From Xenococcus sp. MO_188.B8 (GTDB lineage: Bacteria; Cyanobacteriota; Cyanobacteriia; Cyanobacteriales; Xenococcaceae): a stretch of DNA of 64,000 nucleotides. Positions within the stretch are counted from its first letter, which is position 1; each line of letters opens with the position of its first letter. Positions 34,971-37,159 of this stretch are shown piece after piece. The position numbers and the translations under genes are program-made. Below the pieces are notes generated by a model. That model was given only the letters and a program-made list of their open reading frames with translations, had not been told where the DNA came from and ran no database searches. Where the stretch lies: NCBI GenBank assembly GCA_030065615.1, contig JASJDR010000011.1, forward strand, positions 1 to 64,000. The letters are read 5' to 3'.

Positions 34971-36632
34971 ATGACAAGGATCTTCATTAGTCACAGTCAT
35001 TCAGATGAGGCGATCGCTTATAAGTTGGTTACTTTTCTCTTGGCTGCTCTGAGGCTAGAAGACGAAGACATTTTATGCACCTCAAATCCCGATCAAGGAT
35101 TGTCCTATGGTTCCTCCTCAATAACCGATCAGCTCAAAAATCAACTCAAAAACTCAGAAGCTCTGATTGTATTGATTACTGCTGATAGTCTTCACTCAGC
35201 TTGGATTCCCTTTGAAGCTGGCTCTTTCTGGACAACAGATAAAACAATTATTCCTATTTTAGGGCCTGGCTTAACTCAGAATGATTTGTCTGGGCCACTC
35301 AAAAGCTTTCTCAGTATTCCAATAGAAGTTGAAGATGCAGAAGACAAGCTAAATAATGCTATTAACCAACTAGTTAAAAATCTCAATCTCCAACAAAAGG
35401 TAAATAAAAGACGAAATAATACATTACGAGAATTTGCTAATTCTCTTAGAGCTTGGCAGTCTAAACGACCTGCGATTGATCTATCACAGCAAGAAGAAAT
35501 TGAAGAGTTAAAAGCTCAAATCCAAGAATTAGACCAATCTTACAATAAGCAACTTGAAGAAATAGAAGCAACTTCTCAAAAAGAGAAGAAAAAACGACGG
35601 CAGCTCAATAGAAGACAGTTTTTGAAATTGGCAGGTTGCGGAGGTGCAAGCTTGGTGACAGTAGTGGTAGCCAGTAAGATTTTTCCTTCCAGTCCTAAGC
35701 TTCAGAGTTCTACTTTTAAAGTAATCACAGTAGATTCAAAAGCAACAATTACCAACCTCAGCTCCCATGAAGCGGAGTTCTTTGAGGAGGACTTGGGGAA
35801 TGGTGTAACCCTGAAAATGGTTTCTATTCCTGGTGGTAAATTCTTAATGGGAACAGAAGACGAGGAAATAGAGAGACTTGTGAAAAAATTTGATAGGGAG
35901 GGATTTAAAAGAGAAAAACCACAACATGAGGTGACGGTTCAACATTTCTTTATGGGGAAATTTCAGATCACTCAAGCACAATGGCAAGCAATCGCCTCTC
36001 TACCTAAAGTTAAACAAGACCTCAAACCTGATCCTTCTCACTTCAAAGGGGAAAATAATCTACCAGTAGAGCAAGTTTCTTGGGATGAGGCAGTAGAATT
36101 TTGCGAAAGATTATCGAACCTGACAAAAAAGGACTATAGATTACCGACTGAAGCGGAATGGGAATATGCCTGTAGATCAGTGATAACTCATCAGTCATCA
36201 GTTAACAGTGAAGAGTTGACAGTAGAAAAATGGAATGAGAAATATCATCAGCCATTTTACTTTGGAGAAACGATTACTAGTCATTTAGCTAATTATGCAG
36301 GAAGTTCTATCTACGCTAGTGAACCAAAAGGAGAATATCGAAAAAAAACTACAGCAGTAGGTAGCTTTACGCCTAATGCTTTTGGTTTATATGATATGCA
36401 TGGAAATGTCTGGGAATGGTGTCAAGATGATTGGCATGAAAACTATGCGGGTGCGCCAGTTGATGGTACTGCATGGTTATCTAGCAATGGTAATATAAAA
36501 GTAATACGCGGTGGTTCATGGGTCTACAATCCTTATTACTCCCGCTCAGCGTGTCGCGACCTCAATTCGCGCGACGACCGCTTCAACAGTGTCGGTTTTC
36601 GTGTTGTCTGCGTCGCCCCCAGGACTACATAG
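34971..36632 (+). CDS. TIR / coiled-coil / Tat-anchor / formylglycine-enzyme-fold protein
   Basis: 553 residues in four parts. A TIR domain (1-130, TRIFISHSHSDEAIAYKLV; Glu82 in WIPFEAGSF sits where NADase TIRs have their catalytic Glu). A charged coiled coil (172-212). A twin-arginine-like segment at 214-236 (RRQFLKLAGCGG then a hydrophobic run). An FGE-sulfatase/C-type-lectin-like domain (about 275-550; RLPTEAEWEYACRS, GLYDMHGNVWEWCQDDW, GFRVVCV). The order predicts a cytoplasmic TIR and an exported sensor domain. The last 35 codons have the features of a DGR variable region (separate entry). The FGE active-site cysteine pair is not evident, so a binding role is more likely than catalysis. 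Start ATG 34971. Confidence 0.85.
   Translation: MTRIFISHSHSDEAIAYKLVTFLLAALRLEDEDILCTSNPDQGLSYGSSSITDQLKNQLKNSEALIVLITADSLHSAWIPFEAGSFWTTDKTIIPILGPGLTQNDLSGPLKSFLSIPIEVEDAEDKLNNAINQLVKNLNLQQKVNKRRNNTLREFANSLRAWQSKRPAIDLSQQEEIEELKAQIQELDQSYNKQLEEIEATSQKEKKKRRQLNRRQFLKLAGCGGASLVTVVVASKIFPSSPKLQSSTFKVITVDSKATITNLSSHEAEFFEEDLGNGVTLKMVSIPGGKFLMGTEDEEIERLVKKFDREGFKREKPQHEVTVQHFFMGKFQITQAQWQAIASLPKVKQDLKPDPSHFKGENNLPVEQVSWDEAVEFCERLSNLTKKDYRLPTEAEWEYACRSVITHQSSVNSEELTVEKWNEKYHQPFYFGETITSHLANYAGSSIYASEPKGEYRKKTTAVGSFTPNAFGLYDMHGNVWEWCQDDWHENYAGAPVDGTAWLSSNGNIKVIRGGSWVYNPYYSRSACRDLNSRDDRFNSVGFRVVCVAPRTT
36519..36614 (+). other. Candidate DGR variable region (VR)
   Basis: The codons after GGT GGT TCA TGG are almost all of the form NNC or NNT where DGR templates carry AAC/AAT: GTC TAC AAT CCT TAT TAC, TGT, GAC CTC AAT, GAC GAC, TTC AAC AGT. 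Interspersed are fixed TCC CGC TCA GCG, CGC and TCG CGC. They end in the conserved GTCGGTTTTCGTGTTGTC that encodes GFRVV. This segment is GC-rich with CGC arginines, unlike the AGA/CGA-using rest of the gene. No template copy or reverse transcriptase is in the window. Confidence 0.7.
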
Positions 36633-36652
36633 CACTTTTCCCCTTTTACCCT

Positions 36653-36812
36653 CTCTTGGTGCGCATTCCCAAGCCAGTCCGTTGCGGGGGTTCCCCCCGT
36701 TGTAGGAACTGGCGTTTGCGTCTTACGCCGCCCTAACCCTAAAGGGTACACCTTCGGATAAGGATACCGCTTCGCATAACGCGGGGTCGCACCGCTCTTG
36801 CCCTTTCGCGCG
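36653..36812. repeat. Dispersed repeat block after the TIR-FGE gene
   Basis: Starts CTCTTGGTGCGCATTCCCAA, then AAGCCAGTCCGTTGCGGGGG, and continues with GCCGCCCTAACCCTAAAGGG and GCGGGGTCGCACCGCT. The first part matches 20588-20620, the last part matches 60560-60655. Confidence 0.78.
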
Positions 36813-36922
36813 CAAAAAATAGCTTATATTACTTATTTAATACAATAATACTATGAATTAAAGAATTCCCAATTATTCAACCAGCTAGTATTTGATTAAG
36901 ATAGCTTAGGGAGGAAAAGTGA

Positions 36923-37159
36923 ATGTCAAAAGTCAGCGTTGAGGAAGCTGTTCGTAACCTCAAAGCTTTTTTAGAGCAGGTTGCAGCAGGAGAAGAAATA
37001 ATCATAGTCGAGCAAAACAAACCAGTTACCCGTTTGGTTCCACCATCAATTGAGGAGGAAATATTCGCCGATATGAAACAATTTCGTGAATCTTTATCTC
37101 TTAAAGGTGAGTCTTTGAGTCAAACAGTAATTAGCGCACGTCAAGAGAAGCGATATTGA
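36923..37159 (+). CDS. Phd/YefM-family antitoxin
   Basis: 78 residues with the Phd pattern: EEAVRNLKAFLEQVAAGEEI, IIVEQNKPVTRLVPP, then a flexible acidic tail. Such antitoxins bind their operator and neutralise a PIN-domain (VapC) toxin. GGGAGGAAAAG lies upstream of the ATG. The toxin frame starts inside its stop codon (TTG at 37156) but is broken after 30 codons, so this is an antitoxin without a working partner. Confidence 0.82.
   Translation: MSKVSVEEAVRNLKAFLEQVAAGEEIIIVEQNKPVTRLVPPSIEEEIFADMKQFRESLSLKGESLSQTVISARQEKRY

Follow-up and report, generated by a model that had tools for sequence, protein, structure and literature searches.

The genome of Xenococcus sp. MO_188.B8 is assembled into 354 contigs totalling 8.26 Mb, and the window considered here, a stretch of 64,000 nucleotides, comprises positions 1-64000 of contig C83. 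This window contains a gene for a multidomain protein with a variable repeat (VR) at its 3' end, and its features are as follows.

34971-36632 (+): variable-protein gene of 553 amino acids, with a TIR domain, long helices, a Tat-like hydrophobic segment and an FGE-fold domain
34980-35321 (+): TIR domain, amino acids 4-117 (Pfam TIR_2, 1.1e-8; best PADLOC model SpbK, spbK 2.3e-15)
35328-35600 (+): predicted long helices, a coiled-coil-like linker, amino acids 120-210 (AF2 helices 120-164 and 172-210; pLDDT of the block 55-84)
35604-35666 (+): Tat-signal-like RRQFLK and the start of a hydrophobic stretch, amino acids 212-232, between TIR and FGE (NCBIfam TIGR01409, 21.3 bits, cut-off 16.7)
35814-36608 (+): FGE-sulfatase/C-type-lectin-fold domain, amino acids 282-546 (PF03781, 1.2e-56; Foldseek PvdO 2.8e-18, TvpA 4.0e-15)
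36508-36620 (+): VR, with 13 of 28 template adenines changed (by comparison with the template repeats)
36594-36620 (+): constant 3' end of the VR, with no template adenines and in the IMH position, followed by AGG in the VR and by AGC in the template repeats TR1 and TR2

By analogy, the last of these segments has a putative IMH role. The TIR domain exceeds the cut-off of PF13676 in addition to its SpbK match, and the AF2 model has a pLDDT below 50 across most of it. With regard to a putative NADase activity, Glu82 sits, by eye, in a WxxFE-like motif. The 19-residue hydropathy maximum of the whole protein overlaps the Tat-like segment. A motif of the RRxFL type occurs in 11 of the 42 related loci parsed, which suggests that such proteins share an arrangement in which an effector precedes the Tat-like segment and the variable domain follows it, with putative export.

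The gene that carries the VR at its 3' end encodes a C-type-lectin fold, as judged by Pfam, sequence and fold matches. The original prediction had put a target of a diversity-generating retroelement (DGR) at 36519-36614; its position at the gene end was borne out, and template matching gives slightly longer bounds. The change in composition that it described is also present, with 58% GC in the VR versus 38.6% in the AT-rich gene body. Behind the gene, at 36655-36815, lies GC-rich repeat-like sequence, and similar stretches are seen by eye behind VR genes on C200 and C156. Just downstream, a small ORF (36923-37159) matches the Phd/YefM antitoxin family (PF02604, 5.8e-8).

As had been stated for the window, no reverse transcriptase (RT) accompanies this gene: none of the 11 RVT_1 matches of the genome is on C83. 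An RT and a template of about 100 bp were instead expected elsewhere, and a search of the organism's own genome with positions 36400-36640, which gave 36 matches at E <=10, led to an RT and an Avd gene with a template repeat, about 113 bp long, whose mismatches to the VR are mainly at adenines. The window segment as query retrieved two template repeats, TR1 (C120:16667-16791, minus strand) and TR2 (C181:18809-18933, minus strand); both match the VR part only and are rich in AAC/AAT codons. TR1 belongs to a full cassette in the order VR gene, Avd (113 amino acids), 83-residue ORF, RT (356 amino acids), TR1 and second VR gene. The RT frame is open (PF00078, 6.9e-19) and contains, by eye, YVDD and LPIGNLTSQ, and the Avd protein matches NF033474 at 5.4e-39, above the NCBIfam cut-off. 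A further cassette on C180 has its own RT (353 amino acids, the two RTs being 77% identical), Avd, template (TR3) and two VRs. On C274 (L032:1963-3751) the RT frame ends at 204 amino acids, with RVT_1 covering only 8-109 of 205, and overlaps with an ORF for an OrfB_IS605 transposase; the locus retains its Avd gene and two FGE genes. The Avd model NF033474 scored above its cut-off on all three of these contigs. PF05635 had been considered as an Avd proxy and was dropped in favor of the NCBIfam model, its seven matches including none on C120, C180 or C274.

Nine matches were obtained in an RT protein search of the genome, with at least 75% identity on C120, C180 and C274 only, so that a fourth RT of this type was not found in the assembly, nor was an RT beside TR2. 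TR2 (C181, locus L072) has a conserved leader and 3' flank and lies near a contig end, adjoining an ORF with an HTH_OrfB_IS605 domain; because the contig ends there, an RT may have fallen into an assembly gap. The 3' flanks of TR1, TR2 and TR3 are all conserved, which fits the recruitment of the RT-Avd complex by a spacer 3' of the TR in the system described in the available part of PMC12875486. A decayed template repeat on C124 (L034:6133-6330), with a 3' flank 81% identical to that of TR1, lies beside a TIR-FGE paralog broken by a TGA within its FGE match. On C140 (L079:6050-6400) the end of a caspase-FGE gene is, by eye, directly followed by a TR-type 3' flank. Predicted RNA folds of the TR 3' flanks were not significant (z -1.36, -1.85 and -1.20; +0.73 for the C124 remnant). 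An Rfam RT-14 match was seen directly 3' of TR1 (L029:8525-8671, minus strand), and scores at the TR1 flank (38.3 bits) and the C124 remnant flank (38.4 bits) were both below the gathering score of 48.1. The locus scan gave no RT-14 match at the loci of TR2, TR3 or C140; the whole-genome scan gave C140 only (28.2 bits, E 0.26, under the cut-off), and the same scan produced below-cut-off matches in 4 of 14 control genomes. It is suggestive only that RT-14 may correspond to the spacer RNA of such DGRs.

The window VR is identical to TR1 at 94 of 113 positions and to TR2 at 93 of 113. Its 19 mismatches to TR1 comprise 13 at the 28 template adenines and 6 at the other 85 bases (A 13/28, C 3/36, G 1/25 and T 2/24 by template base), an adenine bias with p 1.1e-5 against TR1 and 2.6e-5 against TR2. 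Restricted to codon positions 1 and 2, the comparison with TR1 gives 13/26 for adenines and 2/49 for other bases (Fisher p 5.6e-6), and counting only bases that fit neither TR1 nor TR2 it is 13/28 and 2/85 (p 7.6e-8); a chance origin of the pattern is unlikely on these counts. Four of the six non-adenine mismatches to TR1 carry the TR2 base, and seven such mismatches separate the VR from TR2; the T at 36523 and the C at 36541 fit neither. Adenines thus make up 13 of 19 mismatches to TR1 (68%) and 13 of 15 among the bases fitting neither template (87%), and the window VR passes the rule of more than 80% adenine mismatches, applied in PMC7517822, only on the latter count.

At the codon level, AAC or AAT template codons at amino acids 519, 522, 523, 530, 531, 536, 538 and 540 correspond to TAC, TAT, TAC, GAC, CTC, GAC, TTC and AGT in the VR; further changes are TAC to TGT, ACG to TCG and ATT to GTC. 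The C- or T-ending codons on which the original prediction was built are present where it had placed them. As derivatives of adenine-directed change, nine of the 15 held up; GTC 518 and CCT 521 are not adenine-derived, and four (AAT 520, AAT 532, GAC 535 and AAC 539) are adenine-bearing template codons left unchanged. As a control, the part of the gene body that immediately precedes the VR was compared with five paralogs and showed no adenine excess (mismatch rates A 0.18-0.32, C 0.38-0.47, G 0.20-0.32 and T 0.14-0.23); this control compares gene with gene, and the VR test compares template with gene.

The 28 PF03781 matches of the genome comprise 21 tails that were compared with the three TRs, six further genes and TR1 itself. 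An adenine signature against the best of the three TRs was evident in 12 of the 21 tails (p <1e-4, among 63 uncorrected comparisons). The other nine, on C177 (a TIR-FGE paralog), C274 (two), C140, C39 (three), C156 and C296, lack a clear signature against these TRs (best-TR p 1.8e-3 to 0.35), and templates for them were not found. Five control FGE genes with true FGE tails (C63, C5, C200:6034, C114 and C352) have no comparable bias, the lowest p being 0.016 (C114) and that of C63 0.42 or more; C194 was left out of the controls, its PF03781 match being partial and without an FGE tail. The cleanest template-target pairs are C120:18772 with TR2 (17 of 17 mismatches at adenines), C181:17755 with TR2 (16 of 17), C180:568 with TR3 (14 of 14) and C180:3545 with TR3 (17 of 18). 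Between the VRs at C120:18772 and C181:17755 there are 17 differences, 16 of them at TR2 adenines, so the two were written separately. TR2 is thus a better fit than TR1 to VRs on two contigs, C120:18772 having 27 mismatches, 10 of them non-adenine, to the template of its own cassette. The simple reading is that TR2 would be used in trans with the C120 RT; an older TR on C120 may instead have been replaced. The other C120 VR (15684) has no clean fit, with 10 and 8 non-adenine mismatches to TR1 and TR2.

We are highly confident that 36508-36620 is a remote VR of a DGR, with RT, Avd and template on C120, TR2 on C181 and adenine differences that point to rewriting of the gene tail in trans, as had been proposed. 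These components and mismatches are read directly from the DNA, and the copying and replacement steps are taken over from established DGR biology, according to which the RT-Avd complex would copy the TR RNA while misreading adenines, and the mutated cDNA would replace the tail of the window gene. Such replacement would alter binding-face residues of a domain that has the FGE/C-type-lectin fold but not the catalytic cysteines of FGE. Less surely, and at roughly even odds, ligand binding by the variable domain would in turn switch the N-terminal TIR, and the protein would belong to a group of sensor-effector fusions made by this cyanobacterium.

A separate consideration is the age of this diversification. 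A single perfect template was rejected, as TR1, TR2 and TR3 over 113 bases and the decayed C124 repeat over its last 30 all mismatch the VR, the C124 remnant agreeing at 22 of 30, which by eye is poorer than the TRs. As no TR matches exactly, the template behind the window VR would be ancestral, since lost or used only in part, and the window copy may be dormant. It combines TR1 and TR2 bases at the 10 sites that separate these two templates and has, at one of them, a base found in neither; loss of the template, an ancestral state of the TR and replacement of part of the VR would all account for this. The cleanest VRs of the genome have 0 or 1 non-adenine mismatch, compared with 6 (TR1) or 7 (TR2) here. 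The window VR is real, yet, in view of the mixture and the bases of neither TR, probably not among the most recently rewritten.

The reading that survives best beside ongoing rewriting, and that we consider somewhat less probable than an even chance, is that past diversification from an ancestral or decayed template has ceased; it retains the DGR origin and differs from the preferred explanation on present activity only. It draws on the mixed sites, which the C200 VR shares save for the base of neither TR, and on the two unexplained bases (36523 and 36541), which occur together in only one of 20 other tails, that of the broken TIR-FGE paralog on C124, the contig that also holds the decayed TR; the T at 36523 alone is also found in tails of C19, C102 and C156. 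Against it, the frame is open, 13 adenine sites have been altered without a stop, only two bases fit neither TR, and partial VR replacement would likewise leave a mixture. It is very improbable that the tail came from another VR gene through duplication or gene conversion without ever having been a target in its own right: similar tails do occur among these paralogous FGE genes, but no donor is present in the assembly, where the nearest of 20 other tails agrees at 91 of 113 bases and no tail at more than 15 of 28 adenine sites, and the gene body differs by ~23-30% from five paralogs. That this is an ordinary fast-evolving paralogous tail under positive selection, with no DGR, is scarcely credible: FGE tails do vary in many relatives, but here it is template adenines in the first two codon positions that carry the mismatches, the genome holds RT, Avd and TR together with an adenine-only pair (TR2 and C120:18772), and the five true FGE tails lack the pattern.

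We retain the remote VR of a DGR as the preferred reading, with present-day rewriting of the window copy as a putative further step. A search of 60 genomes with the N-terminal half of the protein matched three, namely the organism's own, one at 47% over the TIR and one over amino acids 181-280 only, so that these 60 genomes offered no ortholog usable for allele comparison. The contig scan gave 51 relatives, which matched over the part beginning at residue 168 with 28-55% identity and were all too distant for such a comparison.

With respect to function, the top Foldseek match was PvdO, and the DGR variable protein TvpA came third, ahead of FGE enzymes. The two FGE catalytic cysteines were not found in the window protein on alignment to FGE: Cys336 corresponds to Tyr519, and Cys341 to Ser524 in one alignment and to a gap in the others (numbering from mutant titles among the structure matches). 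Paralogs on C63, C5 and C200:6034 keep both as a CxxxxC pair. Because the catalytic cysteines are absent and the fold resembles TvpA, enzyme activity of this domain is unlikely and a binding role likely. A more elaborate model, which we hold only as a doubtful conjecture, would be a predicted membrane-spanning sensor in the style of Toll-like receptors, in which the TIR would be cytosolic, a Tat-type signal would act as internal anchor and the hypervariable lectin-like domain would lie outside the cytoplasm; its diversity would come from a shared trans-acting template pool, in which the RT-less TR2 would recently have rewritten genes on two contigs by means of another cassette's RT.

Remote variable proteins of cyanobacteria, some of them TIR-like, are already published, with 76 remote targets in 21 genomes (Vallota-Eastman et al. 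2020, PMC7517822, here and below as far as its available part goes). The window gene is a further example of this known system, since remote targets, TIR-like N-termini and loci lacking RT or TR have been reported there and in the available parts of PMC10907252 and PMC7159879. The cyanobacterial DGRs of PMC7517822 have C-terminal CLec/FGE VRs, N-terminal signalling domains (TIR-like, caspase-like and kinase among them), IS200/IS605 elements near variable proteins, some predicted membrane or secreted forms, and a paralog with remnant TR-VR homology and no RT nearby; that part does not, however, describe the TIR, Tat-like, FGE order or an RT-less template serving the genes of another cassette. 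The Thiohalocapsa PB-PSB1 genome (Dore et al. 2024, PMC10907252, available part) likewise has several DGR loci, including degenerate ones without RT or TR, and TIR-, NACHT- or CHAT-bearing targets proposed as antigen sensors, but it belongs to another phylum, and there population diversification was shown. Hypervariable FGE-type domains with a TR nearby or elsewhere in the genome are also described for cyanobacterial VMAP/ternary conflict systems with FGS domains (Kaur et al. 2020, PMC7159879, available part). Treponema denticola TvpA (PDB 2y3c), matched by sequence and fold, is a DGR variable protein of the same FGE/C-type-lectin fold; the Foldseek alignment has 24% identity, and the likeness covers the FGE part only, with no TIR match.

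The least explored aspects are the Tat-like segment between TIR and variable domain and the apparent trans use of TR2. The locus presents a TIR protein with a binding surface that programmed mutation can reach, and adenine rewriting would let the bacterium alter binding by an immune-like protein. Should the TIR end prove responsive to the variable one, bacteria would have in DGRs a counterpart of varied immune receptors, and the clean template-target pairs in this genome suit tests of that response. Many immune-like effector fusions in this Xenococcus genome appear to share a small number of DGR cassettes. The N-terminal partners of FGE-tail genes include Gamma_PGA_hydro (C120), NACHT and GUN4 (C19) and caspase (C140 and C180), and C177 and C124 have TIR N-termini by similarity to the window TIR. 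The DGR target at L029:10749-14015 (minus strand) carries a poly-gamma-glutamate hydrolase domain ahead of its hypervariable FGE domain.
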